Positions 2,487 through 32,556 of a stretch of 33,575 nt of DNA are shown one piece after another (the first letter of the stretch is position 1; each line of letters opens with the position of its first letter). The notes below the pieces were generated by a model. That model was given only the letters and a program-made list of their open reading frames with translations, searched no databases and was not told where the DNA came from. The stretch comes from a virus. The stretch lies in IMG/VR virus record IMGVR_UViG_3300050821_009705, positions 1 to 33,575 of that record. One strand, 5' to 3'. The translations under genes were made by a program, and so were the position numbers.

Positions 2487-3187
2487 ATATAACGGACGTT
2501 CCACAAAGCGGCGCCAGAACGCAACAGGGCGCGATCTTCCAAATCGTCGCGCAGTTAATCGACTTCAATACGATATCGCCAAGCAATCCGACGGGCGATC
2601 CGATTCAATTGCAGACGGCCAGTGGGCTTTCAATCTCGATTCTCTATCCGGACGGCGTGACGACTTTAACGGTGCCTGCGGTATTGGCGACCGATGGATC
2701 GGATGGAATGATCGTCTATACCACCGTGAACAATGGAACGCAGATCGATCTTTCGCAGATCGGGCTTTATCATTTTCAGGGGAACGCGGTGGTGGGGGGC
2801 GTGCAATTGCCGCCGAGTTACCAGGATGATTTTTACGTCATGGCGAACGTGACGGGCAATCCGAGCCCCGCGCCGATCTATCAAGCGTCGGCGGTCATCT
2901 TCTTTGATACCAACGGAGTCCGATGGGCGCAGAGCGTTTCGCCAAGCGGCCTGAGCGCGCCGGTGTTGCAACCCTCCGGTCCTGCCAATTTCTTGTTATT
3001 CCAGAATTTGGTCATGGTGGACAGCAACGGGATTTACTGGAAAGCCACGATGTCCACCGTAGGGGTTTTGTCTTGGGCAACGACGGCGCAGACGGCATCT
3101 GCTTTGGGATCTTTCATTCTAAACGACAGCAACGGGCGGTCATGGATCTGCACAATCTCGACATCAGGCGTTTTGGGCGCGGCTTAA
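2483..3187 (+). CDS. Putative structural protein with repeated beta modules
   Basis: 234 residues, no signal peptide, no membrane segment. The first ~125 residues resemble a small virion beta-sandwich domain (GLYHFQGNAVVGG, SYQDDFYVMANVTG). The second half has three similar short modules built around DTNGVRWAQSVSPSG, DSNGIYWKATMSTVG and DSNGRSWICTISTSG, each a D-x-N-G-x-x-W beta hairpin. These look like a tandem repeat of about 37 residues. Such modules suggest an appendage or adaptor protein for the fibre downstream. The start overlaps the previous stop by ATGA. The end overlaps the likely start of the fibre gene. Confidence 0.7.
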   Translation: MNITDVPQSGARTQQGAIFQIVAQLIDFNTISPSNPTGDPIQLQTASGLSISILYPDGVTTLTVPAVLATDGSDGMIVYTTVNNGTQIDLSQIGLYHFQGNAVVGGVQLPPSYQDDFYVMANVTGNPSPAPIYQASAVIFFDTNGVRWAQSVSPSGLSAPVLQPSGPANFLLFQNLVMVDSNGIYWKATMSTVGVLSWATTAQTASALGSFILNDSNGRSWICTISTSGVLGAA

Positions 3188-5190
3188 AAAGCGCGATTTG
3201 TAGCGCGTTTCTGGTGGCTACAATTGTGGCCACTTCGCGCGCCGAAACGGCGGTTACACTCTATCCGCCGGGATCCACCGATTACATTCAAATCCTGCCT
3301 GGACCCATGGTCTCGACCATTTCGGTCACGTTGTCCACCTCTCTTCCGTCTGCCAATCAAATACCGATTGTCAGCACCGTCGTCGGTAACGCCATCACGA
3401 TGGGATGGGGCGCGGCGAGCGCGGGCGGCGGGACGTGGGGATCGATTACGGGCACGTTGTCGACCCAAACGGACCTCCAAAATGCCTTGAACGCGATCGG
3501 GGCATCCACCAACACTTTAAATGCAACCACAGCCACGCTGAGCGCGTCAACCACAACCCTGCAGACCCAACTGAATTCCTTAGCCGCCTCTACAGGCACT
3601 TTGCAGACGCAGATCAATTCCGTCGCCACGTCTACGGGCGTGTTAAGCGTGTCCACCTCTTCGATTCAGACGCAAATCAACGGGCTCGCTTCCACTTATC
3701 TCACCAACAGTTCCGCTACGGCCACCTACCTCCAAGACTCGTCCGCCACGCTGACCTATTTGAATCAGACCGTGGCGGCGAGCACCTACCTGACGCAGTC
3801 AAGCGCGACGGCTACCTATTTGCAATTGTCCAGTGCGACGGCGACATATCAGCCGAAGGGGAGCTATCTGACGGCGAATCAAACGATCACGTTGAGCGGG
3901 GACGCGACCGGGTCGGGCGCGACGGCGATCGCCGTGACGGCCGCGGCGAATCAGGCCAATATCAAAACGCTGTCCGCGTCCAGTGAAACAGTGAGCGGGA
4001 ATTTATTGGTGACCGGGTGGGCGATTCATGCGGGAAGCGAAACGGTATCGGCGGCCGGCGGCCTTGGGGTTACCTTTGGAGTGATAGCGGGGAGCGTCAC
4101 CGTTTCGAGCGAGAACGTCACTGGAGCGCTGACGGCCAATTCGGAGGTGTTAACCAACGCTCTTCCGGTGGCGAGCGGCGGAACCGGAACGGCGAGCCCT
4201 TCGATAACGGCGGGAACGAATATCACAAGCGTGACGGGAACGTGGCCAAACGTCACGATCAATGCGGCCACCCAAGGCGGCAGCGGGGCTTCCCTCACAT
4301 CATCGAACACATGGACGGCGGGCCAGTCATTTAATTCCTTTACGAATCTGAGCGGCACAACGACCATTTCGGGCGGCGTGTTCATTTCGTCGGCCATTAA
4401 TATCGCAATCCCAAGCGTCATCACGACAACCATGACGATCACGTCCACGATGTCGATCATCCTAGCCAGCTGCTCGTCATTTGGAACGACCAATAGTTTC
4501 ATCACGGTGACCTTGCCAAGCGCGTCGGCATCTTCTGGGTACAGCACCGACATCTATGACGTGGGTCCGGACAGTTGTTCGATTCATGTTCAGGCGGCCG
4601 GGAGTGATGTCATCATCGATACCGGCACTTGGTATCTGAACGCCAAACATCAAATGCTTTCGATCCGATCGTTAGGATCGTCGGGGTGGGGTTGCGCGAA
4701 TGGGAATTGCGTGGCAACACCTTTCACGGCTTGGACGACGCAAGACGATGTGGGAACGTACACCGCATCCGCATCGAGCGTCGTTTATCATTGCCCGATC
4801 TATCTTCCGACACCGGTTGCCCTTCTGGGGTTCAGAGCGGATCGACCTTCCAATACGGGAACGGGGTCTTTCTCAATCAACGACATGAAGGGGCATTGGC
4901 TAACGGGCGTGAGCACGGTGACGTTGACGGGAAACCCTAGCAATTATCTTCTGGCGACGGTTTACCAATTGGCGCCCGGGTGGTATCAGCTTCTCGTCGA
5001 ACTGAATAACAGTACGGTCCAATTGTCGGGCAGCAATTCCGTGAACGATGTGACGATGTTGTGCGGAGAAGCCGGAACGAACACGACACAAGACCTGAGC
5101 CAATTCACGCCTACACTGACGGGAGGGGTGAGAAATCGAAATTATCCTGCCATCGATCTGTTAATTAACGGGGGCGACCAAGGAAATTAA
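3142..5190 (+). CDS. Long repetitive tail-fibre-like protein with N-terminal signal-like segment
   Basis: The open frame begins at 2923, but the residues before 3142 are an out-of-frame read of the previous gene. ATG 3142 gives 682 residues and overlaps the previous gene by 46 bp; its Shine-Dalgarno is weak. The N-terminus has basic residues, then a hydrophobic stretch ending TIVATSRA|ETA, which looks like a Sec signal peptide. Next come Thr/Ser-rich heptad-like repeats (TLQTQINS, TGTLQTQINS), then five 10-residue YL..SSATAT repeats (nt 3697-3846), then GGTGTASP/NITSVTG motifs typical of fibre shafts. A beta-rich C-terminal domain follows. The likely role is host adsorption. A signal peptide on a fibre is odd. 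Confidence 0.75.
   Translation: MDLHNLDIRRFGRGLKSAICSAFLVATIVATSRAETAVTLYPPGSTDYIQILPGPMVSTISVTLSTSLPSANQIPIVSTVVGNAITMGWGAASAGGGTWGSITGTLSTQTDLQNALNAIGASTNTLNATTATLSASTTTLQTQLNSLAASTGTLQTQINSVATSTGVLSVSTSSIQTQINGLASTYLTNSSATATYLQDSSATLTYLNQTVAASTYLTQSSATATYLQLSSATATYQPKGSYLTANQTITLSGDATGSGATAIAVTAAANQANIKTLSASSETVSGNLLVTGWAIHAGSETVSAAGGLGVTFGVIAGSVTVSSENVTGALTANSEVLTNALPVASGGTGTASPSITAGTNITSVTGTWPNVTINAATQGGSGASLTSSNTWTAGQSFNSFTNLSGTTTISGGVFISSAINIAIPSVITTTMTITSTMSIILASCSSFGTTNSFITVTLPSASASSGYSTDIYDVGPDSCSIHVQAAGSDVIIDTGTWYLNAKHQMLSIRSLGSSGWGCANGNCVATPFTAWTTQDDVGTYTASASSVVYHCPIYLPTPVALLGFRADRPSNTGTGSFSINDMKGHWLTGVSTVTLTGNPSNYLLATVYQLAPGWYQLLVELNNSTVQLSGSNSVNDVTMLCGEAGTNTTQDLSQFTPTLTGGVRNRNYPAIDLLINGGDQGN
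3697..3846 (+). repeat. Five tandem 30-bp in-frame repeats in the fibre gene
   Basis: Five consecutive 10-codon units begin with TAT-CTC/CTG-type YL pairs: YLTNSSATAT, YLQDSSATLT, YLNQTVAAST, YLTQSSATAT and YLQLSSATAT. A sixth partial unit, YQPKGS, follows. The DNA units are diverged at synonymous sites, so this is protein-level repetition of a fibre shaft rather than a recent expansion. Confidence 0.8.
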
Positions 5191-5440: not shown

Positions 5441-5847
5441 TGCTGATCACGGTGACGCGAACGAATAAGAAGAATCTCGATGCCTTCGGAAACATGGCGA
5501 TCGATACGGATCCGTTCAAGTGCGTCACGCTGGAAAACGCTTCCACCCTCATCCCTGCGGGAATCGTGTACGACGTTCTTTTTATGTGGTCGAACGATTT
5601 TCAACAGATCATGCCTCATGTGATCGTCCCGGGCCGCACGGCGATCGAGATCCACTGGGCGAATTATGTCATCGACCCGGTGAACGCGGCGCATATCGAA
5701 TTGAAGGGCTGCACGGCGGTTGGGAAGGAAGCGGAACTACAGGAGAACATGATCACGCAATCGAAGGACACCTGGATTGCCTTCTGTCAAGCCATCACCG
5801 ATCAGCCCTCGATAAAAATAAAGTACGTGGACGATTTCGGGTCATAG
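5440..5847 (+). CDS. DUF5675-like protein
   Basis: 135 residues. The pattern TLENASTLIPAGIVYDV, then PHVIVPGRTAIEIHWANY, then ELKGCTAVGK fits DUF5675, whose members have a (I)PAG(x)Y strand, a VPGR..I.IH.(A/G)N core and a late GC..(V/L)G motif with a conserved Cys. DUF5675 proteins are common in phages and secretion-related loci; some are suggested to act on peptidoglycan, but the reaction is not established. No signal peptide. The gene starts with a TAATG overlap in the run of small lysis-type genes. Confidence 0.75.
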   Translation: MLITVTRTNKKNLDAFGNMAIDTDPFKCVTLENASTLIPAGIVYDVLFMWSNDFQQIMPHVIVPGRTAIEIHWANYVIDPVNAAHIELKGCTAVGKEAELQENMITQSKDTWIAFCQAITDQPSIKIKYVDDFGS

Positions 5848-19020: not shown

Positions 19021-20271
19021 ATGCAAAAGACGATTGAAATGATCAAGACTTCGGATCTTGTGGCCTCGCGATGGAATCGGGCGGCGAATGGGAACGGCGA
19101 ACTCAAGGAGTTGGCGGAAAGCATCAAAGCGCATGGGATCCTTCAGCCGCTGATCGTGCGCGAAGGGAATGAGATCGTGGCCGGCCACCGACGTTGGCGG
19201 GCCGCCGAAATGGCGGGCCTGGAAAAAGTCCCCTGCATTTTCTCGGCGTTAAGCGATCAGGACGCGAAGGTCGCGCAAATCACAGAAAACCTCATGCGGA
19301 AAAATCTGAACCCGATGGAGGAGGCGCGGGCGTTCCAGACGCTGCGGGAAGGAAACGCGCACACCCACCAAACCATCGCGGACATTGTGGGAAAGGACGT
19401 GAAATATGTCTACCGGTCGCTCGAATTGCTCAAACTGCCGAAAAAAGCCCAGGTCGCCCTCGAAAAAGGACTTATCAGCGCTGCTCACGGCCATCAGCTC
19501 GCACGCGTCGGAAGCGCTCAGATTGACACAATTGTTGCTTTCGCTATTACGCCGGGATTCAGAAGCGAAATCCCCAGCGTCGAAGACCTGAAGGCGGAAA
19601 TCAGCCGGCGTGTCGAAAAGAAACTGAGCGCGGCGCCTTTCGTGAAGGACAAGGAGTTCGCGGGGAAGATCGCGTGTAAGGGCTGCCCCTCGAATACCGC
19701 GAACCAGGACATGCTCTTCGATGACGCGGAAGAGGGATTCTGCACCAACAATACGTGTTTCGCGGCGAAGCTGAAACAGTTCTATAAAGATCTTCAGGGA
19801 GCGGGCGAAAAGCGGTGGCCGCATCTGAGGTTCATCGGGACGGCCTCGAGCGCGTACGGAGAGGATCAAACGATCAAAGGGTATCGGGTTGTCGAAGCGA
19901 AAGACCCGAATATAAAAAAATTACTCGATGAAGTGGATTCCGACGGAAAAACGCCGAATATGGGATTCGGAATTCTAAAGCCTTCCGCGTGGGGAAAAGT
20001 CAAGGCGGCGAAATTGGTAGTGCTTAGAAAAATGAAGGAAGGGGAGAAAGCGTCGGCGGAGAACCAGCGGGATCCGGACGATGAGTATAAATGGCAATTC
20101 ATACGCGCTTATACGGATTCCCATTGCCAAAAGGAGAGGGCGGCAGCCGAGAGGGCGCAAGAGTTGGCCAATGCGGCGGAAGAAGAAGTCGAAGAGGAAG
20201 CCCTGAAGATTTGGGAAAAGAATAAAGCCGCGATCATTGCGGAGTACAAAAAGAAAGAGGGGAAAAAATAA
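19021..20271 (+). CDS. ParB/Spo0J-family protein
   Basis: 416 residues, AAAGGAG before ATG. The N-terminal ParB domain runs from IKTSDLVASRWN to VAGHRRWRAAEMAG (GHRRWRA 55-61), with the ENLMRKNLNPMEEARAF segment that precedes the ParB helix-turn-helix. The HTH lies near HTHQTIADIVGKDVKYVYRS. A cysteine cluster (Cys219, Cys222, Cys241, Cys246: CKGCPSN, CTNNTCF) follows; it is typical of phage/plasmid ParB-like proteins and probably zinc-binding. The tail is a long charged helix. No ParA is seen in the window. It could condense or segregate phage DNA, act as a transcription factor, or regulate late genes. Confidence 0.85.
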   Translation: MQKTIEMIKTSDLVASRWNRAANGNGELKELAESIKAHGILQPLIVREGNEIVAGHRRWRAAEMAGLEKVPCIFSALSDQDAKVAQITENLMRKNLNPMEEARAFQTLREGNAHTHQTIADIVGKDVKYVYRSLELLKLPKKAQVALEKGLISAAHGHQLARVGSAQIDTIVAFAITPGFRSEIPSVEDLKAEISRRVEKKLSAAPFVKDKEFAGKIACKGCPSNTANQDMLFDDAEEGFCTNNTCFAAKLKQFYKDLQGAGEKRWPHLRFIGTASSAYGEDQTIKGYRVVEAKDPNIKKLLDEVDSDGKTPNMGFGILKPSAWGKVKAAKLVVLRKMKEGEKASAENQRDPDDEYKWQFIRAYTDSHCQKERAAAERAQELANAAEEEVEEEALKIWEKNKAAIIAEYKKKEGKK

Positions 20272-21815: not shown

Positions 21816-21971
21816 ATGAAATTCACATACGATGACGTGACCGACAAGCACACGATCGATACCGGGGATGGGTTCCCCGATGAAGTCAAAGAGGACTTCT
21901 TTTACAAACTGATGACCAAGCGCAAAAAGGAATTGGATCGGGGGCGGGTGGAAATGGCCGTCAGTCTATGA
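21816..21971 (+). CDS. Small hypothetical protein, 51 residues
   Basis: ATG 21816 has AGGGGGAAAC in front. The peptide begins MKFTYDDVTDKHTIDTGDGF and ends in a charged helix (YKLMTKRKKELDRGRVEMAV). The stop overlaps the nuclease start (ATGA). The frame also runs upstream through the DUF7694 gene, but that part is a shadow. Confidence 0.65.
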   Translation: MKFTYDDVTDKHTIDTGDGFPDEVKEDFFYKLMTKRKKELDRGRVEMAVSL

Positions 21972-22267
21972 GCCTGTGGAACGCGTATGGAATTCCTGAT
22001 CCTGTAGAGGAACACCCTTTCGCGAAAGAGATCGGGCGTAAGTTCCGTTTCGATTATGCGTGGGTGGGTCCTAAGATTGCCGTGGAAAAAGAAGGCGGCA
22101 TCTGGGCCCGAACGCGAGGAGGACATACGCATCCGATGCACATTCTTCGGGATATGGAAAAAGGAAATATCGCGGCGCTTTTGGGATGGCGCGTGTTTCG
22201 ATTCACGCCCGAACAAATCAACAAAGGAGCGGCGATGACGTTCATCGCGCCGTTGTTTCATGCCTGA
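21968..22267 (+). CDS. Small restriction-endonuclease-fold nuclease
   Basis: 99 residues, ATGA start. FRFDYAWVGPKIAVEKEGG carries a D...ExE signature (Asp29, Glu40, Glu42), followed by LLGWRVFRFTPEQI. This is the pattern of short phage PD-(D/E)XK endonucleases related to Vsr/DUF559 (fRFDfAw....aVE.eGG.w......h.......d..K...a.l.GWrvlRft). In this copy the Lys/His relay seems to be TRGGHTHPMHILRDMEK. It could resolve junctions or nick DNA; the family is only partly characterised. Confidence 0.8.
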   Translation: MSLWNAYGIPDPVEEHPFAKEIGRKFRFDYAWVGPKIAVEKEGGIWARTRGGHTHPMHILRDMEKGNIAALLGWRVFRFTPEQINKGAAMTFIAPLFHA

Positions 22268-22385
22268 AGGCGCGTGGTATCTGTGGGTGTGTTGGACGTG
22301 TCCGCGGCTGCGGCGGTGGGCGGTGATGACGACCGACGAATGGCTGCAGCACGTGAACGATCACGTCGCACAATTAAGTCAGTGA
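22260..22385 (+). CDS. C2H2-like zinc-finger microprotein
   Basis: 41 residues from ATG 22260, overlapping the nuclease end by 8 bp. YLWVCWTCPRL, then EWLQHVNDHV, gives Cys-x2-Cys and His-x3-His with an intervening ~20 residues, which is consistent with one zinc finger. It could bind nucleic acid or protein. The gene stops just before the structured non-coding region. Confidence 0.65.
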   Translation: MPEGAWYLWVCWTCPRLRRWAVMTTDEWLQHVNDHVAQLSQ

Positions 22386-22394
22386 AAAATAATT

Positions 22395-22520
22395 TGGCCC
22401 CTGCGGGTTCCTTGTCTTCTATCGCTGTTAAAGGGATTGATCCTGACGATCGCAGGCCAGGGGCCACGCTTTCACCTCGCGCCGGGGAACTAAAACGCTG
22501 CATTAATACACGGCGCGAGG
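22395..22520 (+). ncRNA. Structured RNA candidate with two stems and kissing loops
   Basis: Non-coding 126 bp. Stem 1 is TGGCCCCTG (22395-22403) with CAGGGGCCA (22458-22466), 9 bp perfect. Stem 2 is CCTCGCGCCG (22475-22484) with CGGCGCGAGG (22511-22520), 10 bp perfect, loop 26 nt. GTTCC in loop 1 (22407-22411) can pair with GGAAC in loop 2 (22486-22490). It could be a cis-regulatory leader for the genes from 22540 or a stand-alone RNA. No known class is recognised. Confidence 0.5.
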
Positions 22521-22539
22521 ATTATTTGAGGAGGCCGAA

Positions 22540-22596
22540 ATGATGAATAATGGAAATCAATCGTGGAAAGTGGGGCCATCATGGCGCACAAAGTAG
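22540..22596 (+). CDS. Possible 18-codon leader peptide
   Basis: A strong GAGGAGG lies just before ATG 22540 and after the right arm of stem 2. The frame MMNNGNQSWKVGPSWRTK ends at TAG 22594-22596, inside the next small gene. It may be a leader that couples or senses translation; the peptide itself is not recognisable. Confidence 0.3.
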   Translation: MMNNGNQSWKVGPSWRTK

Positions 22597-22682
22597 AAAT
22601 GATTGTGTTCGTCGTGTGGCTGTTTTTCATAGCCGGGTTTCTCATCGGGAAATTGATACTGAGTTTCTTCATTGAGCGATAA
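22581..22682 (+). CDS. Small single-pass membrane peptide
   Basis: 33 residues from ATG 22581 with a weak GTGGGG site. MAHKVEMIVFVVWLFFIAGF and LIGKLILSFF form one long hydrophobic segment. It overlaps the 18-codon leader and the start of the next gene, so expression by coupling is likely. Confidence 0.5.
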   Translation: MAHKVEMIVFVVWLFFIAGFLIGKLILSFFIER

Positions 22683-23037
22683 ACACTCCCATCGCGATCG
22701 GTTGGCCGGCGTGAAGAATTATTTTGGGGATCCGGAAAAGACCAAGGAGCACAACGAGAAGATGCGGAAGCGCCTGAGCGAGCCGGCGCGGCCGTTATTT
22801 GATCGGGTGTGCGTGAAGTGCGGCGCGCCGTTGCACTTCGCCAAGACGCATGAGGGCAAGACGATTCCCCTGGACTTGCGGCCGCACATTTATTGTATTG
22901 TCTACGATAGGACGGCGCCGGGGACGCCTTCTACGGTGGTGCGGACGGATTTGTGCTACGTGAGCCATTTCTTTACGTGCCCCTTCGCCAGCGACTTCAG
23001 CGGCAAGAACAGGGAGAAGCCGGAGGATGGAGAATAA
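22672..23037 (+). CDS. Phage zinc-ribbon protein
   Basis: 121 residues from TTG 22672; GTG 22711 is a shorter alternative and neither has a good ribosome site, so the start is uncertain. The core is CVKCGAPLHFAKTHEGKTIP, a beta segment, and VSHFFTCPFASDF. Phage ribbons of this family have C..C..p......G...p.d and a later sHf.tCP.a. Its cysteines and histidine (Cys, Cys, His, Cys) should hold zinc. Function unknown; such proteins sit in early operons. It overlaps the following gene. Confidence 0.65.
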   Translation: MSDKHSHRDRLAGVKNYFGDPEKTKEHNEKMRKRLSEPARPLFDRVCVKCGAPLHFAKTHEGKTIPLDLRPHIYCIVYDRTAPGTPSTVVRTDLCYVSHFFTCPFASDFSGKNREKPEDGE

Positions 23038-30086: not shown

Positions 30087-30554
30087 ATGGGCCAGAACCT
30101 CAATATTAACCAGCAGGAAATTCTTCCAGTCCCAGGGGAGATCGATATCCAAACGATGCAGAATGGATATTTCACCGCGGTCGTGGACACCTCGCAGGCG
30201 ACCGCATTGAAAGCGGGTCAGTTCGTGAAGTTGTTGAGCACGAATACGGGACCGCTTCCGAAAGTGGTAGCGGCCGCACAGGGTGACGTTGCCATCGGAA
30301 TGGTCGCGTTTATCGCCAAGGATTCGAGCTTCAATGCGGGCGATAAAATCGAAATTACCTTCTTTGGCGGCTTGGTCGTTTGGCAGCAAGCGACGGCCGT
30401 GGCCATCGTTCCTCAGGCCCAGTTGGAAAGTGACGCGACGGGACTGTTGGTTCAAGCCAATACGTCGAACCAAGTCCGTGGCGTCGCCTTGGATTATTTC
30501 CCGGCGTCCGGCATGGGCCGTATGATTCAACAGGGAATCTTGAGCGCACACTAA
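30087..30554 (+). CDS. Head decoration protein
   Basis: 155 residues, AAAAGGAG before ATG 30087. A beta-rich sequence with FTAVVDTSQATALKAGQFVK, VAIGMVAFIAKDSSFNAGDK and IEITFFGGLVVWQQATAVAI resembles small capsid-decorating or stabilising proteins located between protease and major capsid genes. No signal peptide. Its position strongly supports the call; sequence alone does not identify the subfamily. Confidence 0.75.
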   Translation: MGQNLNINQQEILPVPGEIDIQTMQNGYFTAVVDTSQATALKAGQFVKLLSTNTGPLPKVVAAAQGDVAIGMVAFIAKDSSFNAGDKIEITFFGGLVVWQQATAVAIVPQAQLESDATGLLVQANTSNQVRGVALDYFPASGMGRMIQQGILSAH

Positions 30555-30579: not shown

Positions 30580-31647
30580 ATGACCCCAGAACAACTTATC
30601 CTGTCGGAGTTGAAAAACTCCGTCCCGGTCCAGTGGACACCCGGCATGACGTTGTCCAATAACCCGACCAATGGCGCGATTGATTCGTCCACGTTGGGTT
30701 ATCAGTACACCATTCAGACCACGACACAGATCCGCGCCGAAACGGTCAAGCAGAAGTTCTACGAAATTCCTTTCGCCACCTATGTCCCTGTTATTCCTGG
30801 GGAAGCGGCGTGGATGGAAACGATCAAGACGAATCTCGTCTATCAGATCGGCGGAAATTTCGAGCAGGGCATCGTGAACACCGGATCGAACCAACAGAAG
30901 TTTGCGAAGGTTCAGGTCGGGACGGCGCCGGTGACCCAAACCGTGGCGTTGTGGGCGAAGTCGTACGATTACAGCGTCTTTGAAGTCAATAAGGCGCTGG
31001 CCCTCAACAACTGGGACGTGGTGAGCGGGAAACTGGAAGCGCTCAAAACCGAGTGGGATCTGGGAATTCAGAAGTGCTCTTTCCTGGGGTTACTTTCGGA
31101 TCAGACGAACTTCCCCGGGCTTTTGTCTCAGCCTAATGTGAACATCAATCTCTCGGTGATCACGAAGAACATCAGCACGTTCGCGAACTCTGGGGCGGAC
31201 TTCCAGACGTTTGTGGGCGCGGTGATGGCGGCGTATTTTGCGAACAGCAATAATACGGTGATGCCTGATCATCTGGGAATCCCGATCGATGACTACCTCG
31301 GTCTGGCGGTGTTCATTAACCCGGCGTTCCCTCTGGCCGGCAGCATGATCATTGACGGGCTGGAAAACGCCTTCAAGAAGATCACGGGCAATCCGAACTT
31401 CGTCATCTACGGCGTGCTGTATGCCAAGATGACGGTAAACGCGGGCTATTGGACGACCAATGGAACGCAGAGGTACGTGCTTTATCGGAAAGATCCGAAG
31501 TCGGTGCGGATGGATCTGCCGATGGATTTCGTACTGGCGGCGCCGGTACCGGTGGGGCCTGTCACGTTTGAGGGTCTTGGGTACGGGCAGTTCACCGGAG
31601 TCATTGCCTTCCGGCCTGCCGAAATGCTCTATTTCGATCACACCTGA
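30580..31647 (+). CDS. Major capsid protein (DUF2184-type)
   Basis: 355 residues, AAAAGGAG before ATG 30580. The N-terminal ~75 residues act as an arm. The core shows EIPFATYVPVIPGEAAWMET, ALWAKSYDYSVFEVNKAL, GIQKCSFLGLLSDQTNFPGL and, near the end, YVLYRKDPKSVRMDLPMDFV, then VTFEGLGYGQFTGVIAFRP. This matches DUF2184, a capsid family of the HK97-like fold that travels with DUF1073 portals and DUF2213 proteases. Hundreds of copies form the icosahedral head. A strong hairpin follows the gene. Confidence 0.9.
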   Translation: MTPEQLILSELKNSVPVQWTPGMTLSNNPTNGAIDSSTLGYQYTIQTTTQIRAETVKQKFYEIPFATYVPVIPGEAAWMETIKTNLVYQIGGNFEQGIVNTGSNQQKFAKVQVGTAPVTQTVALWAKSYDYSVFEVNKALALNNWDVVSGKLEALKTEWDLGIQKCSFLGLLSDQTNFPGLLSQPNVNINLSVITKNISTFANSGADFQTFVGAVMAAYFANSNNTVMPDHLGIPIDDYLGLAVFINPAFPLAGSMIIDGLENAFKKITGNPNFVIYGVLYAKMTVNAGYWTTNGTQRYVLYRKDPKSVRMDLPMDFVLAAPVPVGPVTFEGLGYGQFTGVIAFRPAEMLYFDHT

Positions 31648-32079: not shown

Positions 32080-32556
32080 ATGCCGTCGTATCCTCCACAG
32101 GCCAGTGATTTTCAAGCCTATTTCACGCGGGAATTTGTGTACGGAAGCGGCGGCGATTTCGTCACGGCGAATGATATCAATAGGGCGCTGGCGGAAGCGC
32201 TGCCCCTTGTAAACCAAGGGCTTCTGGACACGCTCGGCGAGCAAATCACGATGTATTTGTATGCGGCCGCCCACTTCCTGGTGATGAATATTCAGGGTGC
32301 GGGCGGCCTTTCTGCGGTCCCGCGCGGGCGCGGTGTGCGGGATAATGCGGAAGCGGTGATCGTCACGAAGAGTGTGGGACAGGTCAGCGTGACGTATCAA
32401 GTGCCGCCGACGTGGATTCAGAACAGTATGACGCTGCTCCCTTTCTTTCGGACCAACTTCGGGCAGCGGTATTTGCAGATGATCGGACCGCGCGTGGTAG
32501 GCAATGCGATGGTCGCCTGCGGGCCCAATGATGTCTTTCAAATGGATAACGAATAA
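32080..32556 (+). CDS. DUF4054-like head-tail connector protein
   Basis: 158 residues; AAGGTGG in front of ATG 32080. The pattern FTREFVYGSGGDFVTANDIN, ALAEALPLVNQ, then MYLYAAAHFLVMNIQGAGG and VTKSVGQVSVTYQVPP is typical of DUF4054 connectors (fp.F....f....i......A........a.aylaAHlL..., then ..svG.vSvsy). It joins the portal to the tail in the neck. TAATG overlap with the next gene. Confidence 0.8.
   Translation: MPSYPPQASDFQAYFTREFVYGSGGDFVTANDINRALAEALPLVNQGLLDTLGEQITMYLYAAAHFLVMNIQGAGGLSAVPRGRGVRDNAEAVIVTKSVGQVSVTYQVPPTWIQNSMTLLPFFRTNFGQRYLQMIGPRVVGNAMVACGPNDVFQMDNE

Follow-up and report, generated by a model that had tools for sequence, protein, structure and literature searches.

The window analysed here is an entire linear virus record of 33,575 nt (IMGVR_UViG_3300050821_009705) in which the plus strand carries all called genes bar one weak call. 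Exonuclease-like, ParB-like (at 19021) and PD-(D/E)XK genes lie to the left of a non-coding gap together with a small nuclease-like gene, and to the right small genes of unknown function lead to the small and large terminase (from 23887), portal, head protease and major head protein. The features in and around the gap are listed below, with reference to L006, a locus from a phage otherwise very different from that of the window.

21968-22267, plus strand: nuclease-like gene of 99 aa (phrog_503), whose phage homologues carry the annotation DUF559 or very-short-patch-repair endonuclease; the landmark common to the window and L006
22260-22385, plus strand: 41-aa ORF whose stop is the left border of the gap
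22386-22539, plus strand: non-coding gap of 154 nt, from the stop of the 41-aa ORF to the ATG at 22540
22395-22466, plus strand: hairpin 1, perfect 9-nt arms (22395-22403 and 22458-22466) and a 54-nt loop
22475-22520, plus strand: hairpin 2, perfect 10-nt arms (22475-22484 and 22511-22520), with a likely relative at L006 5663-5715
22485-22510, plus strand: 26-nt loop of hairpin 2, partly kept in L006 as GGGAAC..A..AAACG..CA..TT..ACA
22521-22529, plus strand: T-rich tail ATTATTTGA (TTTTTTTGA in L006), a terminator-like tract that is weak in the window and strong in L006
22528-22534, plus strand: Shine-Dalgarno sequence GAGGAGG, which the predicted minimum-energy fold pairs with hairpin 1 (5′ arm)
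22540-22596, plus strand: 18-codon ORF 3′ of the Shine-Dalgarno that extends past the start of the following ORF, a layout that on direct reading resembles a leader peptide
22581-22682, plus strand: 33-aa hydrophobic ORF with one likely membrane helix (judged by eye), the likely downstream gene

Both inverted repeats, the complementary GTTCC and GGAAC motifs in their loops and the GAGGAGG lie exactly where a preliminary description of this DNA had placed them. Downstream of the T-rich tract the strong Shine-Dalgarno is followed by the 18-codon ORF, which holds two Trp and runs into the start of the 33-aa hydrophobic ORF (22540-22682).

Perfect inverted repeats with arms of at least 9 nt and loops up to 60 nt number six in the window, with a mean of 7.0 in eight whole-window shuffles, and because the total matches expectation one such repeat alone is unremarkable. 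Two of the six, including the sole 10-nt one, fall in the gap. When the gap was shuffled 3000 times, two disjoint repeats of at least 9 nt never occurred, with 85 shuffles giving any repeat of at least 9 nt and 20 any of at least 10 nt. The predicted RNA fold of 22386-22545 has a z of -3.0, equalled in stability by 2 of 200 shuffles, and ranks 19th among 557 plus-strand pieces of the window, 18 having a lower z. Several pieces in the head-gene region of the plus strand (30186-30525, 31146-31545 and 32106-32385; z -3.6 to -5.6) are more stable relative to shuffles than the gap.

The gap had been described as holding no credible gene, and codon usage in all its frames departs from that of the phage's genes. 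An open frame of 53 aa at 22382-22543, considered as a small-protein gene, has a GTG start overlapping the preceding stop and a stop overlapping the ATG at 22540, and phage operons typically have such GTGA and ATGA overlaps; in L006 an open frame (5592-5738) likewise runs through the hairpin in the same register and stops at the next ATG with an ATGA overlap. Set against this layout, the codon scores are non-coding in both phages (-0.099 in the window, below the 5th percentile of -0.073 for 121 true-frame pieces, and -0.199 in L006), searches with the window frame gave no matching protein in PHROGs or, at E 10, in phage records, and alignment of the two DNAs requires gaps of 4 and 1 nt, with the encoded peptides differing widely. 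As such it is highly improbable that this frame is a real gene.

The relative of hairpin 2 in L006 was found with R1, a covariance model built from the window gap alone and run on 37 sources (the window and 36 loci), for which the top match besides the window was L006 5630-5740 (E 0.076), the best of the 36 loci searched. At 5663-5715 L006 has a perfect hairpin (11 bp, 31-nt loop) with TTTTTTT after it. This hairpin is flanked by two same-strand reading frames and lies some 390 nt past the aligned end of a related DUF559-type nuclease gene. A further locus, L007, comes from the L006 phage, the two being identical over 10,276 nt. Over the ten-pair helix aligned between window and L006, all 20 cells are paired, with six pairs unchanged and four changed on both sides, while controls with a slid partner strand were 40-55% paired; 37 of 500 column shuffles reached the covariation seen, and a pair of sequences can show no more than this. 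The loops have in common GGGAAC at the start, then AAACG, CA, TT and a terminal ACA, and an equally good alignment to the loop was found for 4 of 24288 natural 31-mers from the loci gathered and for 9 of 20000 shuffles. CTTT upstream and TTTGAG downstream are also common to both, and the end of the stem lies 19 nt before an ATG in both phages (counting the eleventh pair in L006; 20 nt without it).

The sequence match is by itself modest. Local alignment without structure placed L006 first of 82 nuclease loci only narrowly (18.0 versus 17.0), and the same L006 stretch was matched as well by 4 of 1341 other window pieces and by 3 of 3000 shuffles. Homology between hairpin 2 and the L006 hairpin is judged likely from these comparisons on the strength of the re-paired stem and the shared context, and not of the sequence score. 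The proposal that the gap encodes a structured RNA is thus borne out in part, with hairpin 2 having a re-paired stem, a partly kept loop and a corresponding position in a second lineage, and hairpin 1 standing without comparative support. In L006 the DNA upstream of the hairpin is within a 75-aa reading frame, and neither there nor at the other nuclease loci was a counterpart of hairpin 1, or with it the conserved aptamer expected of a translational riboswitch, found.

The search for further relatives drew on 49 loci gathered with the window nuclease, eight with a terminase motif and 71 with the L006 nuclease (several contigs overlapping the first set). The only close relative of the window is IMGVR_UViG_3300021088_000054, which is 99.99% identical over 11,821 nt and was set aside as useless for judging conservation, being near-identical to the window; the full-length terminase, the 121-aa protein, a DNA pattern and the (false) 21315 frame all led to this twin contig alone. 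Phage records held no DNA relative of the window and no match for the PD-(D/E)XK protein, and their terminase matches were about 25% identical. A second model, R2, and a loop pattern were both drawn from the window and L006 copies, so that the R2 scores of these two are circular and are not evidence. R2 gave no match in 46 of 49 records, those matched being from the L006 phage, the window and the window's twin, and at 69 other nuclease loci (some on contigs already searched) nothing below E 1.9 appeared beyond the window and the L006 phage. Among genomes, R2 matched none of 398 in one phylum and none of five in another set; one match among 396 genomes of another phylum (L173; E 9.1e-4 per genome, cut-off E 0.01) was dismissed as chance, as it has no GGGAAC and lies inside an opposite-strand reading frame. 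Hairpin 2 was not found in the terminase-motif relatives (L059-L065), and weak model matches in L037, L121, L118 and others showed only a generic hairpin, A/T-rich DNA or a Shine-Dalgarno. The loop pattern occurred in six viral contigs, namely the twin, two of the L006 phage and three sharing one sequence in which no stem was seen on reading, and all 27 genome contigs carrying it have at most four flanking pairs and no stem. Of blastn searches against phages, that with the hairpin gave two matches at E 5, taken as chance, and that with the L006 copy gave none. In the literature searched, represented in part and including PMC2864571 and PMC3014915, no description of the hairpin 2 motif was found, which does not show that none exists. 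Because the R2 and loop-pattern searches returned just two lineages, the element would be either rare or more variable in its loop than two copies reveal.

Other hairpins were seen at these loci. A second long-loop family occurs in other nuclease-bearing viral contigs, at L029 3974-4031, L033 3778-3837 and in L035, and on the minus strand in L087 (3671-3727) and L088; its stems differ (GGCAGGTTGT/ACAACCTGCC versus GGATAGACTG/CAGTCTATCC) and its loop retains CTGCTTAAGTATAG. In L087 this hairpin is closely followed by a tyrosine-recombinase-like gene (2748-3647, minus strand; named by eye) and in L029 it precedes a 160-aa ORF, with no Rfam match in either. At 3163-3216 the terminase relative L060 has an inverted repeat whose perfect 18-bp stem encloses an 18-nt loop.

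The pairing of the two loops suggested in the preliminary description, a kissing interaction between GTTCC (22407-22411) and GGAAC (22486-22490), did not hold up. Five Watson-Crick pairs were reached in 1998 of 3000 loop shuffles and seven pairs with G-U in 1403 of 3000, and GTTCC was not found in L006 5280-5760. Packaging RNA of the phi29 type also has two stems with complementary loops, but in the window the complementarity is at chance level, is not kept and comes with no Rfam match. The suggestion that the element matches no known class agrees with Rfam 15, which gave no match above the gathering threshold in the window and, at E up to 10, only chance-level ones in 22240-22720. CTGACGA at 22443-22449 resembles a hammerhead core; a hammerhead was rejected, with the next GAAA only at 22537 and no match in Rfam. 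For the riboswitch, ribozyme and packaging roles that had been raised no positive evidence emerged, and for an antisense role the longest stretch complementary to the loop in the rest of the window is 8 nt.

Hairpin 2 is in several respects like an intrinsic (Rho-independent) terminator. Its stem is GC-rich, of 10 bp and -20.1 kcal/mol, as stable as such a terminator requires, and a T-rich tract follows it between genes, clear in L006 and weak in the window; the terminator score is +18.7 in L006 and -21.2, below threshold, in the window. Unlike intrinsic terminators, with their short loops of a few nt, the two hairpins have loops of 26 nt (window) and 31 nt (L006) whose sequence is partly kept. 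The stem-loop is probably a small real control element, judging from the comparison of the two phages, and the reading we tentatively prefer is that hairpin 2 may be an intercistronic RNA stem-loop in the phage mRNA that acts on transcript ends or on the next gene.

The alternatives differ in the molecule or the site on which the gap would act. One is a translational switch in which two partners would compete for the 5′ arm of hairpin 1 (22393-22402): 22458-22466 and, once the transcript is full-length, 22529-22539, which comprises AGGAGG and the bases 3′ of it. Read-through mRNA would then have its start at 22540 blocked until a ligand, a protein or processing freed it. In the predicted minimum-energy fold the Shine-Dalgarno is indeed closed, with modelled pairing probabilities of at least 0.93 for 22529-22531 and 22533-22536, and the open form is predicted to be about 7 kcal/mol less stable (-53.9 versus -60.8), the change appearing as the transcript grows to 22540. 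Start sites of the T4 genes e, soc, 49 and I-TevI are masked by such helices (PMC3014915), and the closed Shine-Dalgarno of e, soc and 49 is matched here by prediction in the full-length fold. However, the pairing in the window, as compared with those helices, is neither beyond chance nor conserved. When the upstream DNA was shuffled, 522 of 2000 sequences did as well in pairing energy, as did 78 of 837 window stretches; six other starts in the window pair better with their own upstream DNA, the accessibility of the 22540 start is 12th lowest of 60, and L006 has neither hairpin 1 nor a clear Shine-Dalgarno before its ATG. A translational switch is considered unlikely, and is kept as an alternative because T4 uses helices of this kind. 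The operator of gene 43 in T4 and RB69 is likewise a hairpin upstream of a start, of 16-18 nt and about 40 nt from it, with the loop end kept and the rest variable (PMC3014915); the hairpins described here differ in being 46-53 nt long, 19 nt upstream and linked to no known repressor.

That the gap has no conserved function, the stems being accidental or the debris of a relaxed terminator and the L006 resemblance a coincidence, is in keeping with the modest sequence score, the many loci searched and the expected count of inverted repeats in the window, but is quite unlikely given perfect 10- and 11-bp stems in register with aligned loop ends, four compensated pairs, a common strand and neighbourhood, and two repeats in one gap that no shuffle reproduced. 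A site acting at the DNA level, whether an operator, a recombination or packaging signal or a start of single-strand replication, would suit the position of the gap, which is near the replication/packaging boundary with the recombination/ParB genes on one side and the terminase genes on the other. Double-stranded operators retain the sequence of their arms, whereas the arms differ between the window and L006, and because the arms change while pairing is kept the element is more probably RNA (or single-stranded DNA) than a double-stranded operator. There is also no second copy within the record, in L006 a long distance separates the hairpin from the terminase (12.0 kb versus 36.7 kb in the record) and GC skew makes no turn at 22.4 kb, which together leave a DNA-level site very unlikely.

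For the intercistronic stem-loop, the stem and its re-pairing are read directly from the two phages, and we infer the terminator action, the recognition of the loop and the regulated gene as follows. The stem would form or protect the 3′ end of the upstream transcript, in a terminator-like way in L006 and weakly or partially in the window, and would set the level of read-through mRNA for the small membrane-protein gene that lies downstream. A protein or RNA tuning that read-through is proposed to make contact at the kept loop sequence, and hairpin 1 with its alternative pairing to the Shine-Dalgarno would be at most an add-on of the window's phage. A broader and rather doubtful proposal is that the two copies represent an undescribed regulatory RNA motif of phages whose stem drifts freely and whose loop of 26-31 nt is recognised, and which moves between unrelated phages together with gene blocks of small DUF559-type nucleases; a trans factor would read the loop to direct termination or read-through into the next gene.

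The scope of the finding is modest, with two lineages known, and window 22472-22528 with L006 5661-5723 provides a concrete model for searching larger collections. If the preferred reading is true, a small unnamed RNA element would be common to two otherwise unlike environmental phages, its loop kept while its stem changes, and the kept loop would point to a loop-reading factor in phage gene control.
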